Assembly: GCA_961205875.1 (NCBI GenBank)
Contig: OY540812.1
Span: 24,747,098-24,811,097 of the forward strand
Source of the DNA: Sialis fuliginosa
Lineage: Eukaryota > Arthropoda > Insecta > Megaloptera > Sialidae
Direction: 5' to 3'
Length of the DNA stretch: 64,000 nt
Part shown: piece by piece, positions 2,860 to 62,919 of the stretch
Position numbering within the stretch: position 1 is the stretch's first letter
Layout: each line of letters starts with the position of its first letter
Position numbers and translations under genes: made by a program
Notes under the pieces: generated by a model
What the model was told of the DNA's origin: nothing
What the model saw: the letters and a program-made list of their open reading frames with translations, nothing else
Database searches by the model: none

Positions 2860-3236
2860 AAAGCTATTAAAAGAAGGCACCAATGACACCTGGTTCCAAC
2901 AGAATGGTGCAACAGCTCACAAGTGAGAAAACAAAACGATTGATATAAAAAAAGCCACCTTATTGATCAGATTTGAACGCATCAGACTTTCCTGTGGGGC
3001 ATCCAAAAGAAAGAAGTGTACGTGAAGAAGCCACAAGATTTACAGTATTCGAGCAGAATATATTATCACAGAAAACGCTAATTGTAAGAAAGGTAATGGA
3101 AAACTCCCATAAAAAGAATGGCTTGCATTTACCTGATCAAATTTTTTGTACTCTTAGTTCCAACTTTATTTATTTTTTTGATTACAAGTTATATCAAAAG
3201 TATGTTTTACTGGGACTTTTGCCGCACCCTGTCTAC
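2860..3236 (+). pseudogene. decayed mariner-like transposase, C-terminal part, with right inverted end
   Basis: One frame reads WFQQNGATAHK (from 2891), the block around the second catalytic Asp of mariner-like transposases (usually WFQQDGA), here with Asn for Asp and then a stop. After a frame change, 2973 onward reads ASDFPVGHPKERSVREE and later VMENSHKKNGLHLPDQIF, matching the SPDLxxxDFxLWGxLK and final GGRHL-type blocks of the family. About 50 bp after this, GGGACTTTTGCCGCACCCTG looks like the element's right inverted terminus. The copy is broken by stops and at least one frameshift, and its 5' part is missing. Confidence 0.7.
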
Positions 3237-4149
3237 TAGAACAAATAATGTCTAGTAATAGATTCTGCAGTTTCTTCAGTAAAAAATTGGAATGATTTAA
3301 ATTCTCTTCTATGATTTGGAACTTAATTCATTGAATACTGAAATTATAATTGTTTGGGATGAATTTTGACCAAGGTAGCTTTTGAGTCATCATCTTGGCA
3401 GTCCGCTGCTGTTAACAATTAGAAACACAGCTGAAAATGAAATAATTTCAATTTGAGATTAAAACAGTATTTTCATTATTGGAAATATAATAAACGTTAA
3501 TAACTATTACTTAGAATTCAGTATCGAATTCAAATTTCTTGTATTTTGATAAAGTCCTGTTAAACTTGGATTTCTATTGAAATATAATACAATAATATTT
3601 ATAGTATTTTAATATGAGTGATATAGATTCGTAAGAGTATTTTAAGATAAATAAATATTAACACATTCAATGCAGATACATATAGTATTGCTTTTGGTGG
3701 CATTTAATAAATTGGTAGACTTGTATTTTTGCTATAGTGTGTGGCTAAAAAATTTTACGCAATAATATATGTAAAAAATGTGATTAAATTAAAGTTTTTA
3801 ATTTTTATACAAATTTACTATTCATTTAACTAGGTTTTTGTAATTCTATTATATTTTATTGATCACTTTTGAAGCAGATCTAAATATATATTAATAATAA
3901 TTATAGATTAATTAATATGGAGTGAAGAATTTTCATTAAATTATCATGCTTTAATATTCAACTAATATTAAAATTTTTTATAGTTTCCACTATGTTTTAA
4001 TAATTTAGAGCAAATCTTTCATGCTATACTCCTCTTTTTTGTTCAATATACAAACTTGTAGGTATTTGGGATGGGTTTTATGTCAATAATAATTTTGAAA
4101 TATAAATATAATAGCGTGTTACAAAAAATGTATAGTACATTTTAATAGA
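3237..4149. other. AT-rich intergenic DNA
   Basis: Nothing supportable was seen in this stretch. Confidence 0.5.
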
Positions 4150-4496
4150 CAGTGTCCAACCAAAGGTTCTATTTCGGTTTCGGCCTAAAAATATTAACCC
4201 TTTGCACAGTATGGGGGTTCATGGTAGGATGTGGGGGCCCTGTTGCGAGTCATGAAATGATTATTTTGTGTTGCCGCATTGGCAGCATCTGAGTTGTGAC
4301 ATGATTATTTAGTGTTACTGATACTGCGACATCTGAATGCAAAGGGTAAATAATGTTCATAATTTGTAAGTAGTTTTAAGTTTATTTTTAAGCTTTTGAA
4401 GTTGTTAGTTTCTGTTTTGATCGAAACTGAGATGAAAAACTAAATTCAGTTTCAGTCTTGGTTACGGCTCAAAGAATCTGCTTCAGTCGGACGCTA
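4150..4496. mobile_element. MITE of a TAGTGTCC family, copy 1, split by a piggyBac-like MITE
   Basis: The inverted ends are CAGTGTCC (4150) and the complement of TAGCGTCC (ending 4496). Just inside are GTTTCGGCC and GTTTCAGTC-type tracts that recur in the copy at 15658-15919. The element at 4198-4346 has inserted into it. No clear target duplication. Probably hAT-like by its end sequence. Confidence 0.5.
4198..4346. mobile_element. piggyBac-like MITE nested in the 4150-4496 element
   Basis: The ends are CCCTTTGCA and TGCAAAGGG. The left flank is TTAA (4194-4197); the right flank is TAAA (4347-4350), a one-base decay of TTAA. Length 149 bp, no coding capacity. Confidence 0.65.
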
Positions 4497-5118
4497 CTAA
4501 AATGTATAAATGAATGAAACTATATAGCAATATGAATACAAAAATAATTATCTGAATAAAAAATAACAATAAGAAAGGCACAAAAAAGAACACTTGATTT
4601 TTGTATGAAGATAGGTTTAATTCAATGGAATCTGTGGACTCGTCTAGTCTCGGCTGAATTGATGAAACAGCCACTTCCAACATCTGATAATCTTAAGCGT
4701 AACTTTGTATTGATACTTGTCAGTGTAATATTAAAAAAAAAATCTTAGTTAAAATTAAATCATGGCCACCATCATGTCCCTCGCATCATCTGTCACGCCC
4801 ACCTTAGTTTGAGCACCCTTGAATTGGTGTGTTATGACCACATTAATGCGTATCTAAAAAAAATTAAATAATTATAATAATGAAATGATAACATAAAATT
4901 GAATTAAAGAAATACAAATAATGCCCTTTTAATGTTTGCTAGAAGGAAAAAATTGAGAAACACTGATTTACAGGCATCTCTTATTGTGTCAAATGGAATA
5001 AATTGTTATAAGTGACTAATAATTTTGTTTGATATAATGCTGTGCGTTCTGAAGAAAAAATAAACAGATTTAATTTTAGTTACCTACTGTTGTCTGGTAT
5101 TATAAAGAATTTGCTTGA

Positions 5119-7387
5119 GAGTAACACTGAGTACGTTTACACAGCGCTTTTATTCCGGTTTAACTATAACCGATGTAATAAAACTGTTTCAAGTGGTGGT
5201 GTTTACACATACGAGAATAAGTGACGTCAGCTGGAATTATAATTCCGATTTGAAATACGCTATAAGTTAGATGGTGTACTAACAATAAATCTCAAAAATA
5301 TTTTGCCTCTTTTATGTCCCACAAATCACGTTTCTTTTGTTTTCCATCTCTTCGTCTCAAGTGTTTTAACCATATTTTAACTGACAACGCATTTTCAAAT
5401 GCTAATGCGAAGTGCATTACGATGAAATCCATATACTCTGGAGGGTCATACCATATGAAATGGTCCAAAATTAAATTAAATGGTTGCTTGGCCATTCTAA
5501 AAAAAATGGATTTTTTGTGTGTAATTACCCTAACATGTTGGTAGTTCGAAACGACCATTATTTTAATTTTATTGTTTTTTGTTTTCGCGTGACGGCCATA
5601 TTTGTTATACAGGTCGCAGCATTTTTTGTACTTTAAAGGGTTCGCGGAAACTAAAATATCTCAGCTTCTATCAAACCTTTCAACACGGGACTAAAAGCAA
5701 ATTGTTTAGAATAAAACGGGCTACAAGATTACTTCTAGACATTTTCACCTAAATGTTATCCTAAAGGGTGAAATTTCAGCCTTAATTCTTAGTTCTATTT
5801 TTGAAAAAATCCTATATTCAAGGGGATGTTTTTGCAAGAAGGGGAAAAGTTAACAAGTCAAATTATTTTTTACAAATATGTGGGTACTAGTTGTATTCAC
5901 ACACCAAAGTTCAACTCTGAGACCTGCCCCCCTTTATTTTAAAAAATTCTCAAAATTTGAAAATTCGAGAAAATGGCACTTTTCAAAGCTAAATAACTCT
6001 GGTGGGGGACCAGATAAAATTCTGAAATTTTAGCCCATAATAGTACTATATAATGGTATTATGTACCAAAAATTTTGAGATTGAGATTTGACTACAAGCA
6101 GTGGTATTGCAACCACAATATTCAATAGGAGTTCATATGTTAATACAGAGTGTCAACATTAATATAATATCTATTACTATCTTTTCTCTTCTTGGAAATA
6201 GAAGAATGCTTGAATGAAGAAAAAAATTGTATTTTTTCTGAATGTTTTTAAAATCTCATTTTTTATTTTCTGTCACTTCCGGTTGAAACGGAAATGATGT
6301 CAACTTTTGTTTTTCAAAGGTTACACCCTATATATATTTTATTTTTAGATAGAAAATTAGGTCAGCTTTAAAAATTTATAACACATATAACAACTTAAAG
6401 TAACTCATAACAAAGATATAACATGTTTTAATTATTATTGAAACAAAATCACAACATGTATACGCTCATTGAAACATGCATTTTTGTGGTTGCAATACCA
6501 CTGCTTGTAGTCAAATCTCAATCTCAAAATTTTTGGTACATAATACCATTATATTTATATTATGGGCTAAAATTTCAGAATTTTATCTGGTCCCCCACCA
6601 GAGTTATTTAGCTTTGAAAAGTGCCATTTTCTCGAATTTTCAAATTTTGAGAATTTTTTAAAATAAAGGGGGGCAAGTCTCAGAGTTGAACTTTGGTGTG
6701 TGAATACAACTAGTACCCACATATTTGTAAAAAATAATTTGACTTGTTAACTTTTCCCCTTCTTGCAAAAACATCCCCTTGAAAATGGGATTTTTTCAAA
6801 AATAAAACTAAGAATTAAGGCTGAAATTTCGCCCTTTAGTATAACATTTAGGTGAAAATGTCTAGAAGTAATCTTGTAGCCCGTTTTATTCTGAACAATT
6901 TGCTTTTAGTCCCGTGTTGAAAGGTTTGATAGAAGCTGAGATATTTTAGTTTCCGCGAACCCTTTAAAGTACAAAAAATACTGCGACCTGTATAACAAAT
7001 ATGGCCGTCACGCGAAAACAAAAAACAATAAAATTAAAATAATGGTCGTTTCGAACTACCAACATGTTAGGGTAATTACACACAAAAAATCAATTTTTTT
7101 TAGAATGATCGAGCAACCAGTGCTGGACCAGTTCATATGGATTGACCCTGTAGATATTTATATTTTGTGAGGTTGGCTAAATAGGTATAACTATGTCCAT
7201 GCAGTTTACACGCATTTTTATTCATGCTCTATTCCGGTTTACTTATGCTATTCCCGTAGACCAAGAGGCATAACTAAACCCGATTAGTTATGTCGGGTGT
7301 AAAGTGTCGTTTACACGGACTTTTACACCTGGTTTTATTACATCGGTTATAGTTAAACCGGAATAAAAGCGCTGTGTAAATGTACTC
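5119..7387. mobile_element. large foldback DNA element
   Basis: The outer inverted ends (about 5119-5185 and 7328-7387) share more than 50 bp, including GCGCTTTTATTCCGGTTTAA. Inside is a second, longer palindrome. Its arms lie at about 5480-6118 and 6480-7128, are over 600 bp each and highly similar, and include the CGCGTGACGGCCATATTTG tract and its complement. The loop is about 360 bp. Short frames inside the arms occur in both orientations and are by-products of the palindrome. TA occurs at both outer borders, but the target duplication is not certain. Confidence 0.75.
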
Positions 7388-9018: not shown

Positions 9019-9026
9019 TAATTTTT

Positions 9027-9993
9027 GGCGAAACTTTAGTATCCGACGTATACACAGATTTCATATTTTTGTTTGTTGGCAATACATTATTTGGGTGTGC
9101 GCGCGTATATGATTTATGTTAGTGATTGAACGGTGTTCAAACGGTGGAATATGTGCGACCGCTAAAAGATTATAGTATAATAAAATAATATAATTATATT
9201 ATATTAATAAACATATTATGTTTATCAACATATAACTGATTATTTTTTTTAGTATATTTAGTAATTTCATGTTCACACGTGACACACCTAAAAATATATT
9301 TTTTTAAATTGGAATCTGTAGGATCGCACCAAGGCGACATAAGTATTAACTATTTAACTTATTTGTTAAATTATTAATTTTAATTTCTTAATAATAGCCG
9401 AAGGCGGTCTCGATTCTCGGTTCTTCGGGCATTACTTAGATAGTCTTAAAATACTGTGTGTATAACTGAGACTCTCTGAATCGAAAAATTCGTCTGTCTG
9501 TTTATAAATTACACAGCCACATACAAAAAAATGCGATACCAAAAAAAACGACATACAAAAGCGAACATAGTCGAAATCCAAATTTTTGTTCAAATAAAAA
9601 AATAGCTGGTAAGCAGAAAATTTTAAAAATTTGTATTTCGACTAGGTAACTTTTTTTAGTATCGCACACTGTTTTTTGTGTAGCCAAAATTATAATATTG
9701 TATAAAAGATACAAATATACACATATTTTAGATGTGTCACGTGTGAACATGAAATTACTAAAAAAATTTTTTTTAATAATCAGTTATATGTTGGTAAACA
9801 TAATATATTTATTAATATAATATAATTATAATATTATTTTATTATACTATAATCTTTTAGCGATCGCATATATTCCACCGTTTGAACACCGTGCAATCAC
9901 TAACATAAATCATATGCGCGTACACCCAAATAATGTATTGCCAACAAACAAAAATATCAAATCTGTGTGTACGTCGGATACTAAAGTTTCACC
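9027..9993. mobile_element. foldback element, GG termini, 8-bp target duplication
   Basis: The arms at about 9027-9295 and 9720-9993 are near-perfect inverted copies. They include GAAACTTTAGTATCC and TTCACACGTGACACA and their complements. The central part is about 425 bp. TAATTTTT occurs exactly at both borders (9019-9026 and 9994-10001). Termini starting GGYGAAAC with an 8-bp duplication fit Merlin-type elements better than hAT, because the target does not match nTnnnnAn. That assignment is an inference. No transposase is encoded. Confidence 0.75.
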
Positions 9994-10449
9994 TAATTTT
10001 TAATAATATATTTGTAAGTTACAGAGATGAGATGATTTATTTGATTTTCTTGGTTACTAAATATTTTCAATGAACTTATTGACTGTTACGTTATAGATCT
10101 TTTACAAGGTGCATTATTCAATATCAATTTTTTTTATTATAGGGATTTTTAATGACTGTTTTTAATTATAATGTTCTTGTATAATACACAATCAAATGAA
10201 TATTTAATTTAAAATATTTGTGAATTATTAATATAGGTTGTAGATTAACACCAACGTTTTTTAATTGGTACATTTTCAGACAATTCCATAGTGAATATTT
10301 TTTCAAATATTTTTTATAATCAACGAAAGGTGCAATGAACATTAAATTATGTGTTTAAGAATTAGAGAGTGTCCATTAATTACATAAGGATGATTTTTTA
10401 AATTTTCATCCTCTTCCCCTTTATGTAAAATTTCTAAATTTTTACTTAA

Positions 10450-12512: not shown

Positions 12513-15478
12513 ATGTCTATTCTTATCAATTTTTTTAAATCTATTATTCACAGTATGTTGAGTTTATTATGGTTCGGTAAAAAACAATTTTCAAATTCCT
12601 TGAGTATCTATATTAAAAGTAATACTGGAAATACTATAAGTGTCGATTTAGACCCAAAATGGGATATAAAAAATTTGAAAGAAATAGTAGCTCCACAATT
12701 AGGACTGCAGCCGGAAGAAGTAAAAATTATTTTTGCTGGAAAAGAACTTTGTGATGATATAACTATCGAGGTTAGATTGTTTGCTTTTTTACATTATTAT
12801 TATTGTGCTTTGAAGTAATATGAACAATAAATATAAATTATAGCAATGTGACTTGGGTCAGCAAAGTATTCTACATGCCGTTAAAATGAAATCAAGTCCT
12901 AGAAAAAATCGTTTAAGTACATTTAGTGAATCATCTGAAGAAGGTAGTCCTTCTGGTTCGAAGCCACTTTGTGAAACACTTTTAGATCTTCAGTTAAGTC
13001 CTGAAGAAAGAAACATTGTACGAACAGAAGCAGGTGATAATTAAATAAATATTGTTTTCTACAGTTTTTAAGTAATTATAATTGTTTTAGATCAAAAAAG
13101 AAGTCGTGCACATTTTTACGTTTATTGCGCACAGTGCAAAAGCATGAGACCTGGTAAACTGAGAGTACGGTGTAAGATCTGTAAAAGTGGTGCTTTTACA
13201 GTAGATTCAGATCCTCAATGTTGGGATGATGTTTTACAACCCAATAGAATTACGGGGATTTGTGAAAACGAACATGGAGGCCACGAACAAGTATGCAATA
13301 AACTACATATGGTTTTCATATTATAACATTCTATTTTAATTTTAGATTGAAAATGATGCATCTGATGAAAATATATTGTATGCAGAATTTTATTTTAAAT
13401 GTACAGGACATGCAACTCAAGGAGAGAAAGATCAGGCTGTACCTCTTCATTTAATTAAGCCCAATTTGCACAATATACCTTGTATAGCTTGTACAGATAC
13501 CAAGTATGTCAATTATATATTTGGTTTTATTAAAATTTTACATTTTACCCTAACGGAAATATTTCAATGCTAAATAATGAATATCTACGAAATTTTTTAT
13601 TTCTTGTTCTTGGAATTGGATTTTATCACCCATAGTCTACCCTCCACCTCTGTACTATCTTATTTAATCTCATTATTGTTTACCACCTTCTCTTGAATTT
13701 TTGTTGATCAATCATAGTAATATTCACCATGCCCGTGCCTGCACTCTTGATACAGAAGTGTTTGTAATCTGCGTAATAACCACACAATAATAAAAACTCC
13801 TGTCAAAGTACACATGTTTCATTTTTATATATTTTCTGCACATATACATGTGCATATGTACTTGTAGACACTCTATGTGTGTGAGGGGAAAAACTTAGTG
13901 GGAATAAAATCTAAATGGACAGTATAGAGGTTAGATTTTACTGTACAATTATACTGTATAACAATAAATACTGATATAAATATTAAAATACTATAACTTT
14001 TGTTGAATTTTTAGTGATCCTGTTTTTGTGTTTCCGTGTGAGCAAGGGCACGTAACATGTTTAGATTGCTTCAGACAATATTGTGGGTCACGATTGAGAG
14101 ATCGACAGTTTTGGCCGCATGATACTTACGGGTATACATTGAACTGTCCAGCCGGATGTCCGAATTCTTATATAGAAGAGATTCACCACTTCAGACTGCT
14201 CACAGAAGTGCAAGTATGTAGGATAAAATTGAAAACTATTAACTAGCAGCAAACTTCACTTTTTTCAATTATTTAATTTTGATTACGGTAGTGAAGTACT
14301 TTTCAGAAAACAAAAAAAGTATTTAATTATTGATATGGGGGGGATCAAAAGCGTTGCTACCGTTAGGTTTTTTTTTTTTTACTAATTTGTTATTTTAAAA
14401 TATGTTAATTGAAATCAGTTTCGGCTATTGTAATTATTTTTTCGTATATTAAGCCAATACATTTTTTTTAGACCTTACATTAAAAAAAATAACTTACGTA
14501 AGTATAGGAGGAGGGAATCTTATACTTACGGACCCTTACAAGGGGGGGGGGGGGTAGGAGAGTTGAAAATTTCAAAAATCATCTTTACATAATTAATGGA
14601 CTGTATAAATAATCAATTTGTGTTGTAGAATGTAGTTTTGATTTAATATCAATAATTAAATTGCTTATGAAAGATAAGGAAATGTTTGAATTGCATTTAA
14701 TAAAATTAATAATTTTTTGATACATTTTATTAATTGAAGATATGTGGATATATTTTTTAGTATTCACAGTATCAGAGATTTGCAGCTGAGGAGTATGTTT
14801 TACGACAAGGTGGTGTACTCTGTCCGCAGCCTGGATGTGGAATGGGAATACTGATTGATGAAAACTGTGATAGAGTCACTTGTAGTAGTTGTAATGTTTG
14901 TATTATATCAATGTTTAAAATATGAAAACACAATATTGTTTTTTTTTATGTAAATGTATAATTTATATTTTATAGTATTCGTGGTCTAGAAATCAACTAC
15001 AAAACGATTTAAATAATGGTATAAATACAGGAGGTTTGTGGACTGGTGTAGAGCCTATAAATGCACAAAGGGGTCGATGGATAGGTCAAAATGTAGGGCC
15101 TATTGATTTAACCTTAGTTACTACAAAACCATGTCCGAAGTGTGGCGTCGCGACTGAACGTGAAGGTATTTAATTAATATTTTAATGAATATAATAATTA
15201 TTGAGTCAACGGATAAAATTATAGAACTTTGACTTGAGTAAGAAGTCAAGATGTAAGATAAGTTGTATTTGAACCAACATTGCAATATGTACAATTTAAC
15301 ACTTTTTAATAATATTACGTATTAAGGTTATCAATAATAAAAATTGATATATTATAACTTTTTTTTAGGGGGCTGCATGCACATGATTTGTGCAAGAGGT
15401 TCTTGTAAGTTTCAGTGGTGTTGGATATGTCATACGGGATGGACTCGAGACTGTATGGGTTCACACTGGTTCGGTTAG
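12513..15478 (+). CDS. park: parkin, RBR-type E3 ubiquitin-protein ligase (8 exons, 479 aa)
   Basis: Exons: 12513-12770, 12844-13033, 13091-13290, 13346-13503, 14015-14213, 14761-14895, 14976-15165, 15369-15478. All junctions are GT-AG and in phase, totalling 1440 nt. Parkin is the cytosolic ligase that PINK1 activates on damaged mitochondria. Domains in order: Ubl (about 29-100; DLGQQS holds S94, the PINK1 site, as in Drosophila), RING0 (about 160-260), RING1 (about 262-325, ligands complete), IBR (about 355-400), REP Trp (GRWIG), and RING2 with GGCMHM (catalytic C446, H448). It ends DCMGSHWFG. Odd points: the second IBR zinc site has lost all four ligands (FCxxC is WSRNQ, and no later His or Cys); the triad Glu before WCW is Gln459; a RING0 Cys seems replaced by His in CENEHGGH. 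The first Met was chosen; Met15 (12555) would give a Drosophila-like start. Expected length for insect parkin is about 480. Confidence 0.96.
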
Positions 15479-28500: not shown

Positions 28501-31500
28501 AATGAAAAGCGAGCTTTGAGTATACAAGTATATCATAAAAAATTGTTAGGAATAATTTGCATTTATATTTTAAAAGTTCAATATTTTACATGCATATTCA
28601 AGGGAGCTAAAAAACTTAATTTTTAACCTTATCATTTTAATATATTAATGACATTTAAATAATCACCTGTTGCACTGGATTCCATGTGTTAGGTTCAGAA
28701 ATCTCCATGCTACCAAAATAGGAATTCATTGGTGCAGTATAGTGGCTATGAGATTGGCTTGGACCTGGGACAGGAGTGTTGACATTCCCATAATTATTAA
28801 ATGGCATGAACGGGTAATCCTGGAATAAATAACATAAATTATTCATATTATTTGGTATATGAAATACATCCAAATTATGAATGGAGGTTTCGTTCATTTA
28901 GTTCTACTGAAAAGTCCATGAGAGCATATGTATATCTAACTTTAATATACAACTCACTGCAGACGTTTTTACGCTGTCCCGTTGATCTATATATCCATGT
29001 TCCTTTGAATTTCAGATATGCTATAGGTGTATATAATCGTGCTATCATTCTAAAGAGCTGAACAGTGAAAAAATTGTGCAAGCAACAAAAAATTAGAGCA
29101 CGGATCGGTTAATCTGTACTTTGGTCTAAATTATAATTATATACCTAATATAAACAGTAATACTTTCTAATAAATAATCAGTCATTTTTATAGACGATAT
29201 GAACTCACGTTATTTTTGCATTGGCTTTAAAACAATAGATTAGTAACTATACCAAGTTTCAAAAATAAAACGTTATGATTTTTTATTTTATATTTGTGGG
29301 TATTTTTTGTTTTCTTTTAATATTTTCATTAATGAGAAACTATTTTTGTTTTAAGAATTGGATCTACATAAAAAAATAAGAAACATTTGTTTGAAAAAAA
29401 AGGATAAATATAGTATATTTATTAGGGTGCTTTTTTTTTTGCGACTATTTTTTTTTTTCACTCCCACCTCAAAATTTTCTTGGAAATACCTCAAAAAAAA
29501 TTCCCTGAAAATTTGAGCCCTTAATTTTAATATTAAGTACTCGCTTTCAGCGTTTAAAGATTTCCCATTGAAAATACACGTAAACTTGAACTTTTTTTTT
29601 TTTACTTTTTATAGCTCAGAGGCATTTTATCCTATTTGAACGTTTGAAAAACCAAATTACGCAGAATTAAATGCTCTATAAAAGTATTTATTGCAACGAA
29701 ACTGTAACTTACAAGGGTGAGACAGTACAGGTGATTAAAGTCAAATTTTTCATGAATTTCTTGTTTTTTCATTGTTATTTCGTAAATGGCTGAAAATACA
29801 GAAAAAGTTTAAATAAAAAAGTTGTAGCAAATTCAATTTTCTTCAAAAAAGATCCTGAGCATTAAATCTCTATTATTGATATTTTTCAAGATAATAAGCT
29901 TTTTGTTTTTTATGATTTACGATTTTCATGAATTCGCGACTCTAATTATTAAAAACAATTTTTTTTAAAGTTATTATCTACTTTTTCAAAGTCAAGAAGA
30001 AAAGAAGAGGTAAATAACCTCAAATAGATGTTCTTTATGTTCATGAAAATCGTAAATCATAAAAAACAAAAAGCTTATTATCTTGAAAAATATCAATAAT
30101 AGAGATTTGATGGTTAGGATCTTTTTTGAAGAAAATTGAATTTGCTACAACTTTTTTATTTAAACTTTTTCTGTATTTTCAGCCATTTACGAAATAACAA
30201 TGAAAAAACAAGAAATTCATGAAAAATTTGACTTTAATCACCTGTACTGTCTCACCCTTGTAAGTTACAGTTTCGTTGCAATAAATACTTTTATAGAGCA
30301 TTTAATTCTGCGTAATTTGGTTTTTCAAACGTTCAAATAGGATAAAATGCCTCTGAGCTATAAAAAGTAAAAAAAAAAAAGTTCAAGTTTACGTGTATTT
30401 TCAATGGGAAATCTTTAAACGCTGAAAGCGAGTAGGTACTTAATATTAATATTAAGGGCTCAAATTTTCAGGGATTTTTTTTTGAGGTATTTCCAAGAAA
30501 ATTTTGAGGTGGGAGTGAAAAAAAAAATAGTCGCAAAAAAAAGCACCCTAATATTTATGTATAGTTAAACTTTCAACTTCAGCAAAATCTTCAGACTGAT
30601 TTTGGCTAAAGATGCAATTTTAGACGAAGCCGAATGTTCGGTTAGACACTAGTCATATAACATAGTAATAAACATTCTTTGTAGCGCCAGTAAAATAATT
30701 TTAAGGGGAAATTATTTTCGCGAAACAGTTAAATGATATTTACTTTATAATTGGATTAAAAACCTTTAGCAAAATTAAGAACCAATTTAAACAGAAAATA
30801 CTATTAGCAGCAAAGTTACAAACCAGTTTAAACATATAAACTTTAAATACTATCGAAAAGGTGGCAGCACAATGTATTTTATATTTTTATTACATTCTAA
30901 TTTTGAAAAAGTGCAGTGAGTGCTGATAATTTTCTTGTCATCTCAGAGCTAGGGCTTCAAACCGTTATTTTTTTCGTTTCGGTTTTCATTCTGGTCCGAG
31001 TAAAAAAATATATATCGGTTTGGTTCCAGTTTTCGTTCCGAAAATAATATAAACGTTTTTTCCGGTTTTCGGTTCAGCTCCGAGTGATTAATTATAATTT
31101 TTTTTTATTTGTATTAAAAATTTATTTTTAACGCGCATATTTTAACATGTACCGAACCGAAAAAAACGATTTTTTTTCGGTTCGGTTCCGGTTTTCGTTC
31201 TGGCAAAAAATAAAGGTTTTTCCGGTTTTTGGTTCAGTTTCGGTTCGAAGCCCTGATCTCAGCATCATTAAAAAAAATTTCCGATTTTTCTCACTTTCAG
31301 AGATATGGGGAGACAACGTAATTTTACGATTTCTTTGAAAATTTGTTAAACGAAGATTTTAATAATAACAAAACGTTTACATGCTTAAATTTCTTGAATT
31401 GTCAGCTTTCATTTGACACCTTATTTGCCGGGATTGAAAACAAATCTTAAAAAGCGCAAAAAAAAACTTAATTTAATCCCAAGCAAATTCATAACGATTT

Positions 31501-34500
31501 GACACCTCGCAGATAGCGTTAGCTGAGTTTTTGTTCTAGAGCAATTTTTTTATTTAATACCCGATATAAAAATGTCAGAATTTTAGAAAAAAAAATACGT
31601 CAATGTATAGACCATGGGTTCCCAAACTTTTTCGTTTCACGATGCTCTTTGAATTAAGGTTTTCCCAGGGCGGGGTGGGGAGTAAATTTATCGACGTTGC
31701 GCTTTTGCGATTTCAAAATCCTTGTCAGATACTGCAACATTCATAAGGAAATCAATCAAATCAAGTTTCTCTGAAATAAATCAACAGCAACAGGAAGAAA
31801 CATTTTATAACCTTAACTTCAGTTAACCGGCACACCATGCCGGATACCGCAACTTCCACAGTGGCGTAACACGGAAACGTACCTAGCGTTTCGCACTGTA
31901 AAGGGAAATGCAAACACTCGCGCGCGTATACGTGTGTGTGTGTGTGTTTAGTATTGAGCGTGGCCGATAGACGGCGTTACGTAACAGAGCGGCGTCGGAC
32001 GGACGCTGAGCGCGGTAACCATGGCAACGACGCGCCGCTCTCACCGAGTGTACCAGTCGATCCACACGGCGCGCGTGAATGTGTGCGTGCGTGTGCAGGA
32101 GCGTTTTTAAACTTTTCAGTCCTTCCAGAAATATTTAAAAAAAGAGACGAGGAGAAATAGTAGCAATTGTGCCACAACTAATAACGCATAGGTATGTGTT
32201 ATTAGTTGTGGCACAAAAAAAAAGTGACACATAGGTATGTGTAGTGCCACTTTTTTTATATAGAACATATTATGTAATATTAATGATTGATTAGGTTAGG
32301 TGAATTATCTCTTTATGCTACTGTATTTAAGGGTTGAGGAATGAATGGTTAAAACTTGTTTTATTATAAATAGAACTATTGATGTTTTTAGTTAATTATT
32401 AATTTTACAAAATCGTAAATATTTCAGCTCCTATGCGAGATAGGGGGTAGATTTTTCCCCTAGAATCCTCCGTAGGAATTTTCTCGCTGGATTGGAAGAC
32501 ACAATTACAATTTTTCATTTGTAACAGGAGGCGAAATATTGAATGTCGGTTATATGTATCTACAAAATCTATGAAAATTAGCTGAAATTCATTTTATTAT
32601 AATTATTATATTATTAATTTATTGTTCTATAATTATTAGTTCCTTTCAAAGTGTTACATAAAATCCTTGCATTCGTGTTCACGAAGTTTCTCCTGCTTGT
32701 GAAAGCATGACCCCTACATCCTATCACGGGCCCCCATATTGGAAGTTGTTAGAGGGCTCCGTAAAAAAAAATTTCCAGTAAGTTTTTTTCTGAATGACAT
32801 TTTTTTAGGGTTTTCAATTACAAATTTTTATTTTAATCACTGAATTTTTTTTTGCCAGCCAGTGTCCTGCGGGGAAGACGTAGTCCAATGTCAGAAATGA
32901 CCAGGGATCGATAGATTGTACCTATCAAAAATTGTATTTGTTTGTCTCAAAAATAAAAAAAATTAACAACATGAGTTCCAGATATAGTAGCTGTAGTATA
33001 ATAATACTGCAGTTTTGGTAATGTGGTTATTAGCAGTGGCGCGTTACACAATAGGCATTTTAGGCAACTAACTGCCTAAATTGTATGTATGACCTTCTTT
33101 TTGCTTTTCAAATATTTTGTTGAAGTTTTTTTTCGAATCTTCAAATAATGCTCACAATTGCTTGTATAGCAAAAAAGGTCTTCAGACATTGTGAAATGAA
33201 ATTTTTTGAATGTTGATATAAATATAAAAAAAAATATTCGAAAAAAAATGGGGGCTCCGAATATTCATTTTGCCTGACGTTCGCGATATTCATAATGGGT
33301 AATTGATTATTAGATTGAAGATTCATTTTAAGTATTATTTCCTATTATAACATTTTTCGTATTTTTTTTACCTTTTATTATATTCGCCAGATTGGATTTG
33401 TCAAGCCCTGAATATGATTTCATAGGCATGATTAATGACGCTGTTATAATTGTTGAGGCAATAGTATGATATGCGTATCATACAATTAGAAAGTAACGGA
33501 ATAAGATTTTTTGTATCCCCTAAATATGCATTTCTGATCAGTTAATATACATTTTACTAAAGGTATTGCATGAGTTACTTGATTTGGAATGAAAACTGCC
33601 ATAAACTGCTGTTTTCGTACTTATACATAGGCGACGAGAAAATTTGTAAAGCGGGAAATACATACTTTTGGTAGTTAGTATTTGTCGCATGTCTAATATT
33701 TTTATAACAAATATTTAATTGTTTTAAATTTGACCACAGAGATAGAATATTACTGGAGTGATAATTCCTTAGATTAAGAAAGTCTATGGATACATAACAA
33801 CCAATGCTACTCCGTATATGAAAGTGTTACTTTAAGACGGCCATCTTTTCTTAAATGTGACATTCGTCATTTTCATGCATATTATCCCAGAATTTAGCAT
33901 GTATGAGAGATGATAGTTCCAAATATAAAAAAATTATTATTCATTAATTTTATAATTCAAACAATTGATATTTATTACTTATTTTAAAATCTGAATGATA
34001 CGCCAATATTAAAAACGTGTCCTGCGAAATAACAAGTTTCCAAGGTATGTAAAGACAAGATAGTTTCGTAGCTCTTTGGCCAATCAGCGTTTACGCGGGA
34101 ATTATGTCACCATGGGGATATATTCAAATGTTATAAATGAATAATAATTAGTACAGTAAAAATAATTCCTTTATTAACGAAAATTGGTATATATAGTTTA
34201 TACCTACACTTTAAGAAACCGATGAGTATAGCGACCAAGGAGTGCAGGGGGTGAAAGGGGCAAATTAACGAAAAACTTCAAAATGGCAACTGCTCTCAAT
34301 GGTTTCTTAAAGTGTATAAAGGAATTATTGTGTTCGAAAAATCTATTTTTACTGTACTAATTATACATTTTTAAAATTTAAATATATCCCCATGGTGACA
34401 TAATTCCCGCGCAAATGCTGATTGGTCAAGGAGCTACTGAAACTACCTTGTCTTTACATACCTTGGAAAGCTCTAACTCTTTGTCTAACGTGTTCTAATT

Positions 34501-37500
34501 GGTTAACGACGTGAACTGATAGGCCATAACTCCCTGTACTAAAAACATTGGATTCGCACGATAGGTTGGTAACCATGGAAACGACCAAAACATATTTAGG
34601 TTAGAGAATACTATAGTACTGCAACTCAAACCGTAATAGTCGCTTAAAACGCGAGTAAGCGGTAAGATCGAGATAACTCTTTCTGTCCCATAATAATCGA
34701 AAGTACATTAGTTGACAATACTTTGGACAAAAATTACCTGAAATTATTGCGTCGAAATACAGCAAAATAGGGCATAAATGTACGCGACTCTCACGCGACG
34801 TTTTAAATGCTTTTTCCACTGATCTATTAATGAAATTCTAAATATTTTGTAATATACTCACTCATTAGGCAAAAATTTATTATCAAATACAAATCCCCTA
34901 ACCATAAAAATTGTAAGAGTGTCTTTAAGACTCTGATGATGATAGCATTGCTATTGAAACACGTGTAAGTCTAAACTCTTACAATTTTTATGGTTAGGGG
35001 ATTTGTATTTGATAAGTCATAACCATAGTTTTTGTCTGTTGTTTGTTAAAAATTTATTATCTCGATCTTTCCGGTTAAGTCGAAAATATATGGTCTATTA
35101 GAAGCAATGTGGTACACCGGAATCTATCTTTATCAACCCGCCCTCGCTTATTAGAGTTATCTAGGACCTAGGAGTTATCACTCTAGTGAGATTCTATCTC
35201 TATGGTTTTGACCAACTAAGAAATACTGTCTTAGGAAGTTGACGATTTTGGCTCATAATATTGGTTTATGGTTCTCAATGTATACGAGTATCTCGTTACA
35301 ATTCTTAAAAATGTTATGTGTAAATGAAATATTTTTATTTTGTTTTATCTATAGTACCTACGCACTTTGTTATTAAATTATATTATTTTATTTTATAAAT
35401 AATTTTTTTTTTTAAATATAAGGTCTTTTGCTATTTCGTAGAAGTAATAATGATGGTGCATACAAGTCTTGAGGCTTCCGCGATGATCTTGATATGGATC
35501 TTGGCTTCTGGGTGTAAGCCGCGTCGGTTTGGTCGTGTTATCGGCCGACGTTTCGTCACACATTGCATTTTTAAAAGAGCCCTGAAGATGTCCACTGCAA
35601 TGTGTGACGAAACGTTGGCCGGTAACACGACGAAACCGACGCGGCATACACACAGAAGCCAAGATCCAATGATGGTGCATATGTTCAAATGAAAAACGGC
35701 AATTTCATACGCACCAAACTAATAAAAATTAACATTTAGATCTCGGTACCTGGAAGCAATTTATAAATTAACTGATTCCTCATACATATACGCTTCTACG
35801 TAATTATTAGGTCATTCCATTAAGTAATCAAATCAAAGTTGAATCTAATTTGTGTTTTCCCCTCATTTTCTACATTTTTTTTCTTCCCTATAGTGAATTT
35901 TTTTAAATATATTTTTTGTAAAATTCCTTTGGCTAGGATAATTGTAGTCATTTAAAATTATTTGTAAACTTGGAAACAAGTGCTAACCCAGTGAGATTAT
36001 TTTTGGAAAATATGAATATTATTATTTTCGAATAAAAATTTTCTAGTTTCTGCAACACTTCTCCAGGGCCGTAACTAGAGGCTATGGAACCCCGAGGCAA
36101 CAAGTGACCCCCCCCCAGTATATACAAAATATAAAAATTGAAGACTTTTTTTTCGTTACCAATTTGAATTTAACACTGATTTCTAATTTTAATTTTGATG
36201 TCCTTTTTCCCCTCAACGCCCCTACATTTGGGGGCCCCGGGGCATTCTCAGAGATTTGTGATTGCAATAGTGGACTAGGGCTGCAGACGAGACAAGACGA
36301 TATTCAGGTAAGTCTAGTTTCGTCTTAGATTTTGAAATTTCATCCCGGTCTCGGATTTTGTAAGTGACAGACTCGTTTCGATCTCATCTCGTACACGTAC
36401 CTGAGTCAAATCTCGGTATTTAAAAATTAATATCAAATAGACTTATAAATAAAGTTGATATCGTCACGGTCTCATCACGTCCAAATTAAGTCAACCTTGT
36501 CTCGAGATGGACAAAAGTTTCGTTTCGGCGTGGAGCTCTAATGAATATACTGATTGCAAGCTGTTGATTATTGATTAAAATCTTTGGCGTCACTGTTAGT
36601 GACTTATATACAACAATTAGAGTACATTCCGTTAGTTAGGAATACTTTTCCATTCATTATTATTTTGTTCTTTATTTTTTTAAACTACGCTTCTAAAAAA
36701 TTGTTTTGCTACAGATGATACATCTTAACACCCTTATTAATTTAATAAACCTAGTTGGTACACCGGTACACCTACATATATTGCATTCGTAAAAAAAGCA
36801 TTGTTACATAATTATAAAAAATACGGCATAAAATAAGAAAATAATTTCAGATATAGATTCGCCCTTTATTTAAACCGACCCTGTAGGTGTGTGTATGTGT
36901 ATGTGTTTGCTAGTGCATGTGTGAATATGTGTGTGGGTGAGTGAGCTAGATCATGTACAACCTTCTCCGGTAAAAACTCGGCGGATGTTCTACGCTGCCG
37001 CTTTTTTCTTTTCCTCGAAAATCTATTTCAGAGGTGGAAATATTCTTTCCACTTCGACCGGATACAAAGTACCTAGGTATATACATATATAGATAAGTAC
37101 ACACTTTTTTGACAAGGTTTAAATGTTCTAGTTTTTATTTGGAGTAAACAATATGCGTATTATATATGCCAATGTTTTTACTTATAGCCAGACCTGGATT
37201 TATAAATTTGCCGCCCCTAGGCAGTTGAGAAAATTAACCCCCCCCCCCTTCACTATTTTTACGCATTTTAAACTTCCTATTTTCGGTTCTCAGAATCGAT
37301 TAATTGCATATTGACCATACAAGTTTTCGCTACGATATAGAAAATCATGTAAACTGTTATACAAGAATCATTGTTTATTTGCGATGTCGTTTTTTAGAAA
37401 TCTGTATGTATAAAGAAAAACACTTAATTAACAATAAATTAACAATGCCGTTAATAATCGTTCACCAATGTTTATTAATAATGACAGAGGAGGTTATGTG

Positions 37501-62095: not shown

Positions 62096-62919
62096 TTTAC
62101 TTGTCAGGTATATATAGTACATACATAATGAAAATTTGTATATAATAAGCGTATTTTTTGCAATAATTATCAAAAAAATGTGTGCCTCACTTATAAAAGA
62201 GAAGACCTCAAAATAATTTTCTAACTCGTGTCTCGGAATGTATAAGTGCGGCCCTGGACCAAGTTAAAGAACTGGCTGAAACATAAAATACACAGCCTGT
62301 CCAACAAATCGTCAACAACAAGTTCTAATAGCAACACATGTTAAATTAAATGGAGTATAAATGGTTCCCTAATAATTTACAGATGTTTCATTTAACTCGT
62401 ACTTTTGTTTCAGTTGTTTCATTACTTGCAAAAACTATTTAGAACAAGATAAGCGTCGATTTTTTTTGTTACCATAATAGTAGCACGATTATTCTACTTA
62501 CATACGTCAATAAGCATAGATTATTTATTTTATTTATGAACCATCTCAAACATTGTATAACAGAAGTTCCAATTTGAGTTCTTAGTCAGCGTTTTACATT
62601 ATTGAATCCGGGAAAAAATTTAAGATCTAAAATGATCAAATCAGATCTTGATAGATCTGCATTTTGAGACAAAATCATATTTTTTCATTGGTTTTTGATC
62701 TGTGGAGACCTGCAAAGATATACAGCGATCTCTGAAGATTGTGATAGAGATTGAAACGTTGAAAATTCATGAATTTTTATCGTTGTAGATCTATGCAGGA
62801 CTCCACACATCAAAACCCAGTAAGAAATATGATTTTGTCTCAAAATTCAGATCTATCAAGATCTGATTTGATCATTTTAGATCTAAATTTTTTTTCTGTT
62901 AGTGAAAGTTCCTGTTTAT

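Follow-up and report, generated by a model that had tools for sequence, protein, structure and literature searches.

Our analysis indicates, with a probability of roughly 85%, that the 164-bp hammerhead-bearing unit in the Sialis fuliginosa window (the whole 64,000-nucleotide stretch of DNA analyzed) is a twin-primed stub of the mRNA of a Penelope-like element (PLE), in which about the first 130 bases of that RNA were copied by the PLE enzyme. The unit is probably a promoterless, dead-on-arrival insertion. The original prediction had taken it for a solo element mobilized without an enzyme of its own; it is indeed enzyme-less and mobile, with target duplications and many copies, but it does not look independent and reproduces the 5'UTR of a resident PLE. 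The long inverted repeat had been explained as a huge extension of hammerhead stem I. That explanation fails: no inverted arm stands beside the 5'UTR copies of the resident PLE (L081), among copies of the unit the arm ranges from none to about 97 nt, and the long “stem I” is a by-product of insertion and not part of the design of the ribozyme.

The unit is bordered by a 14-nt direct repeat, AAAAATTTATTATC, at 34871-34884 and 35048-35061, which we read as the left and right target-site duplications; the inverted repeat begins within the left copy and shares its last 5 nt, which leaves 9-14 nt to the target. The two inverted arms (34880-34920 and 34975-35015) are 41 nt long, 100% complementary, and separated by 54 nt, and beyond the right arm lies a one-sided tail of 32 nt (35016-35047, plus strand), which in the PLE is followed by ATAAGC-ATG. 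All of these elements had been recognized earlier, with lengths of 40 bp for the arms, 13 bp for the target repeats, and 33 bp for the tail, each of which is here revised by one nucleotide. Positions 34918-35047 (plus strand), read as the sense cDNA, correspond to +1 to +130 of the resident PLE 5'UTR, while the left arm (34880-34920, minus strand) is the reverse complement of 5'UTR positions 98 to 58; the left arm and the start of the sense cDNA have 3 nt in common (34918-34920). For the left arm, the best reading is a second cDNA, begun at an internal site (site 2) and fused to the sense cDNA. A hairpin formed by UUAUGGUUA and UAACCAUAG with a 7-bp inner stem is predicted at 34988-35028 (plus strand), and the putative site 2, near 35014, falls 2-4 nt 3' of its apical loop; the tail, which contains the 3' half of the hairpin, would be the stretch from site 2 to a further start site (site 1). 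The hairpin gave z scores of -4.0 for 46 nt and -2.1 for 65 nt, and the z score of -10.9 for the fold of the whole unit is caused mainly by the inverted repeat. A 21-nt inverted repeat (90%) at 34656-34676 and 35057-35077 brackets the insertion, its right arm starting inside the target duplication.

The sequence of the unit was traced to a PLE present in the same genome. At L018, a 535-aa frame (P0001) ends some 100 nt ahead of a sense-strand copy of the unit; its translation matched RVT_1 above the cut-off (E = 1.9e-13) and GIY-YIG at E = 5e-4, with 20.7 bits against a Pfam cut-off of 22.6. At L081, on contig C9, an open 783-aa frame that is 99% identical to P0001 runs from an ATG at 3232 to 5580 on the reverse complement, and the 130 nt of the unit, 100% identical, occur on both sides of it, at 3096-3225 before the ATG and at 5683-5812 after the stop. 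The terminal repeat of this element runs 2 nt past the unit sequence (through TTTGTTAT) and stops 4 nt before the ATG; the sense 3' end of the unit lies 4-6 nt short of the ATG. At both UTR copies a TATA box, TATATAAATA, starts 33 nt before AGTGTC, and this spacing, together with the many copies that begin at AGTGTC, marks that motif as the probable transcription start of the PLE. Because of the identity at L081 and the TATA spacing, the sense strand of the unit is described here as the PLE 5'UTR from the probable transcription start to near the ATG. As would be expected of a PLE derivative, it combines identity to the pLTR and 5'UTR, a parent with RT and GIY-YIG domains, and a one-sided tail accompanied by an inverted partial copy and a target duplication. 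A search of the genome with the PLE protein gave at least 82 matches, with 81 of 1004 candidates scored; a genome search with PF01541 gave two matches above the cut-off, both elsewhere, and a PDB sequence search gave no match. Three tandem PLE frames about 3.6 kb apart and about 30% identical to P0001 were also seen at C1:22117686-22126480.

The predicted ribozyme (34928-34976, plus strand) has the layout of a type I hammerhead, with its parts in the correct order and at the positions first proposed. Stem I (AGACT/AGTCT) occupies 34928-34932 and 34968-34972, the CTGATGA core 34933-34939, stem II ((G)ATAGC/GCTAT(T)) 34941-34946 and 34950-34955, the GAAA core 34956-34959, and the palindromic stem III (ACAC/GTGT) 34959-34966, with the predicted cut at 34967/34968. 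The CUGAUGA...GAAA core, three ordered stems, and an NUH cut triplet are thus all present, plus an extra U (T at 34940) after CUGAUGA. A 28-nt core pattern occurred once against 0.02 expected and was found in 2 of 100 shuffles. The Rfam search that had been proposed as a check reported nothing in the window at the gathering cut-off and no hammerhead at E ≤ 10; RF00163 had no match in the genome, but the control sequence was likewise detected nowhere, which makes that search uninformative.

Firmer support came from a sister family of PLEs (53-56% protein identity), whose members L102-L104, identical across 50 nt, have a hammerhead following their frames. When a covariance model was derived solely from these sister sequences, it located the ribozyme at 34928-34976 with 23.8 bits (E = 2.1e-4), the next best hit in the window having E = 1.9, so that the covariance check succeeded with this model and, with the identity of the sequence to a resident PLE 5'UTR, the proposed Penelope-type hammerhead held up. 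Between the unit and the sister family, 6 of 13 stem pairs show a compensatory change and 94.9% of cells are paired, in an alignment of only three distinct rows for which 2 of 500 shuffles scored as high and slid alignments gave 0-1 such pairs. The outermost pair of stem I is lost in the sister family, and the cut triplet is GUA in the unit and GUC in the sister. Descent and covariation thus support the hammerhead, although the minimum-energy fold of the complete 5'UTR lacks it, a 5' hairpin competing with stem I, and the sister fold behaves likewise. Three remoter PLEs (30-34% identical; L105-L107) had no CTGATGA within about 370 nt past the match, and L106 had only CTGACGA.

The extra U, which had been flagged as unusual, is present but is no defect of the window copy, since the PLE has it too and the sister family has a G in its place. 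The plus-strand hammerhead of CChMVd likewise carries a single additional nucleotide between A9 and stem II; unlike the U of the unit and the G of the sister PLE, the extra nucleotide of this viroid ribozyme is an A, and in the available text of that study A10 to U raised trans-cleavage 3- to 4-fold while A10 to G was strongly detrimental (PMC3705267).

The genome search covered 392 Mb in 20 contigs, and the paucity of open frames and high A+T content are of a eukaryotic appearance. The unit as DNA gave at least 92 matches, with 40 of 1225 candidates scored, and had no match in a plasmid collection. The search that had been suggested for other copies with the same tail was productive: the 41-nt hairpin-tail junction occurred 463 times at ≤ 3 mismatches and never in a reversed-pattern control. 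From these we took 56 copies, namely all consecutive zero-mismatch junctions from the start of C1 to C3:30212456 (loci L048-L077, L082-L101, L005, L013, L014, L015, L035, and L043). The sense 3' end lay at 130-132 in 55 of the 56, a sample in which, selected as it was by an exact hairpin-tail junction, sense arms without a tail are uncounted. Direct repeats of at least 11 nt flanked 32 copies, compared with 3 of 1624 mismatched flank pairs, and were not found in the other 24; repeats of at least 9 nt (37 copies) were 85.5% A+T.

Joints were parsed in two ways, with gaps allowed and gap-free; a quasi-palindrome at the 5' end caused some joints to be misassigned in the gapped parse, and L064 is misplaced in the gap-free parse, since inspection by eye puts its start at +1, with a duplication of 14 nt. 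An inverted left arm was present in 40 of 56 copies in each parse, although the two sets of 40 are not identical. In the gap-free parse the outer end of the arm fell at 96-99 in 27 of these, at 91-94 in six, and at 100-106 in three, and never past 106; it was aberrant (15-44) in four (L013, L063, L065, and L095), the arms of L013 and L063 being very short. The gapped parse placed it at 96-99 in 29 of 40. The inner end was variable, lying at 1-8 in 21 of 40 arms (gap-free). The sense cDNA started at +1 to +5 in 29 of 56 copies by the gap-free parse or 36 by the gapped one. Seven of the 27 gap-free joints had 0 nt in common and the others 1-6, and filler of 2-23 nt occurred at the joints of 13 of 40 arms. 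A match to the PLE promoter lay upstream of six copies, in one case merely a short piece, and of none of the remaining 50. Promoter-bearing copies are not rare in the genome as a whole, as the promoter-start junction was found 166 times at ≤ 2 mismatches and not at all in the control, a count that includes tail-less copies and takes inverted pairs double. At L056 (C1:15336456 region) both inverted arms run past the transcription start into the promoter, as if copied from an RNA started upstream, and at L075 (C2:2336140 region) the sense copy is preceded, 54 nt upstream, by an inverted copy that extends to +1.

These regularities fit a model in which the PLE would be transcribed from its TATA promoter into an RNA that starts with AGTGTC and carries the hammerhead at +11 to +55 and the hairpin at +71 to +111. 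The RT/GIY-YIG enzyme of the PLE would cut AT-rich DNA with a stagger of about 11-16 bp. On one strand, a cDNA would begin at site 1 (+130 to +132, directly before the AUG) and usually reach the 5' end of the RNA; on the other, a cDNA would begin at site 2 (about +97, by the hairpin loop and some 34 nt upstream) and extend to a variable point. The two cDNAs would then fuse with few or no common bases, at times with filler, leaving in a single event an inverted left arm, a sense 5'UTR bearing the ribozyme, a one-sided tail, and a target duplication. The template in this model would be the PLE mRNA and not a short RNA.

The stubs resemble what a reaction described in vitro for a lizard PLE would leave in a chromosome. 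According to the available text of that report, the lizard enzyme cuts and extends both target strands at AT-rich targets and initiates at two neighboring internal positions within a stem loop, the genomic tail being the sequence between them (PMC11167929). We see about an even chance that in the Sialis element each target strand has a single start site, site 1 (which yields the tail) on one and site 2 (in the hairpin loop) on the other, rather than site 1 being used twice, and that most templates bypass the ribozyme, a minority of cDNAs terminating at the cut. The evidence for one site per strand is that an inverted piece of the tail was found upstream in 0 of the 56 sampled copies. If this reading is true, an asymmetry of the enzyme complex would explain the “optional tail” and the inverted pLTR together; it must also explain why the start site of the lizard element is reported, in the same partial account, to be alike on both strands (PMC11167929).

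The 40-nt ribozyme string is intact in 29 of 56 sampled copies. Sense cDNAs start at or before +50 in 46 of 56 copies (gap-free parse), which implies that the template RNA is usually uncut, as for the lizard PLE, where ribozyme mutants are described as without effect on insertion (PMC11167929). On the same count, cutting by the ribozyme was rejected as the source of the 5' end in most copies. Four of the 56 sense cDNAs (L070, L083, L085, and L097) begin at the cut site, 51-53; among 27 internal ends of sense cDNAs they account for four (binomial P = 0.034, relative to a uniform distribution over 65 positions), some of the 27 being misparsed (L063, L064, and L067). Only one arm, that of L089, has its inner end there, at 53. 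An excess of cDNA 5' ends at the cut site of the ribozyme is suggestive at most, and the copies are too few for cut RNA to be claimed as a template.

The unit might instead be an independent non-autonomous retrozyme, whose small hammerhead RNA would arise from tandem copies, be cut and circularized, and be inserted in trans by the PLE enzyme. A size near the ~170-400 nt given for animal retrozymes in the available part of PMC7229834, the hammerhead, the many copies, and the lack of a protein would all suit such an element, as would the four sense cDNAs that start at 51-53 and a four-copy, 176-bp array in the sister family. We nevertheless consider it unlikely. Head-to-tail junctions of the unit (≤ 3 mismatches, whole genome) gave one match compared with six in the control, and with no such arrays found the unit is not a retrozyme by that test; its sequence is that of the PLE 5'UTR, 29-36 of 56 copies start at the probable PLE transcription start, and a promoter match is absent from 50 of 56. 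The sister array includes host flank and resembles a local duplication.

A solo pLTR could also arise, in the manner of solo LTRs, if the direct terminal repeats of a full PLE recombined, and solo pLTRs are on record for rotifer PLEs (PMC3846280, in part). This origin is very improbable here, as most sampled copies extend no further than the probable transcription start, 50 of 56 being without the promoter portion of the pLTR, and a variable inverted arm with short duplications right at the ends is not what recombination would be expected to produce. The perfect terminal inverted repeat and the direct repeats of the window unit would, taken alone, suggest a foldback DNA transposon or MITE in which a hammerhead-like sequence occurs by chance; a tail on one side only and outside the repeat, target duplications that mostly measure 11-16 bp, arms varying in length down to none, and identity to the PLE 5'UTR make this scarcely credible. 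A twin-primed stub of the PLE mRNA therefore remains the preferred reading.

The ribozyme of the sister family had 1,223 genome matches at ≤ 3 mismatches and none in the control, with 11 head-to-head pairs, 15-273 nt between them, among the 100 places listed. The sister model applied to 45 loci found three more sister copies, located in sequence flanking L010, L013, and L015; those at L010 and L013 start at AGTCTGG, 31 nt past the start of the sister TATA stretch, and the one at L015 is too diverged for its start to be placed. Seen by eye, L010 mirrors the window unit in that its tail sits on the inverted arm and the sense arm has none. The sister 5'UTR has a predicted hairpin of similar layout but weaker (z = -1.5 to -1.8), with, by eye, a change from A-U to G-C in its outer stem. 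The array mentioned above, at L108 (C1:39236130-39236990, positions 30-736), consists of four head-to-tail 176-bp copies, 99% alike, each made of a sister hammerhead stub and host flank. The flank suggests that a stub was duplicated locally; the array would be retrozyme-like if transcribed.

In several respects the Sialis element resembles the Penelope/Poseidon-type PLEs Anolis PAc (PMC11167929) and Adineta Pen2a (PMC3846280), as these are presented in the available portions of the two papers: a frame with RT and GIY-YIG, a promoter at the pLTR, an inverted partial copy upstream, an optional one-sided tail of 30-40 bp, short target duplications, and AT-rich targets. It shares with PAc a hammerhead at the pLTR and reverse transcription that begins within the RNA near the start codon (PMC11167929). 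In contrast to PAc, where the start reportedly lies about 111-118 nt into the frame, the tail and both putative sites are here in the 5'UTR, site 1 being 4-6 nt before the ATG; and unlike what those portions describe for PAc and Pen2a, most sampled copies (50 of 56) are stubs of about 130 nt without coding sequence or promoter. With animal non-LTR retrozymes, as far as they are described in the text available (PMC7229834), the unit has in common that it is small, non-coding, AT-rich, present in many copies, and provided with a hammerhead, and that mobilization by PLEs is thought likely; it differs in that arrays of the unit were not found, its 5' end prefers the PLE transcription start, and its stem III is minimal. 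A review, likewise available in part, considers PLEs and Terminons likely helpers of animal retrozymes, with no conserved motif that reveals which element is responsible (PMC7761336). Here a hammerhead mini-element is linked to its enzyme.

In the open-access literature on PLE hammerheads, tails, inverted and solo pLTRs, and retrozymes, with subscription papers mostly outside its scope and its sources seen in part, we found no description of a high-copy set of twin-primed PLE stubs confined to the 5'UTR. PLE insertions that bear a tail and an inverted arm are already known. What appears to be new, on weak evidence of absence, is the stub form together with the regularity of one site per strand. 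Many minimal insertions, with ends at a probable transcription start and at two preferred sites, would amount to a readout of the PLE mechanism from one genome, and the stub set addresses questions about the mode of PLE insertion, the one-sided tail, the inverted terminal copies, and the role of the ribozyme.

Elsewhere in the window, further foldback pairs, whose arms are 87-100% complementary and as long as 570 nt, lie at 5481-7119, 9024-9996, 29449-30527, 34068-34437, 35495-35668, and 62613-62894 and are probably MITE-like or other palindromic insertions. A ubiquitin-like domain (Pfam ubiquitin, 4.1e-11) is encoded by a 101-aa frame at 12513-12818 on the plus strand, which is presumably similar to the N terminus of parkin.
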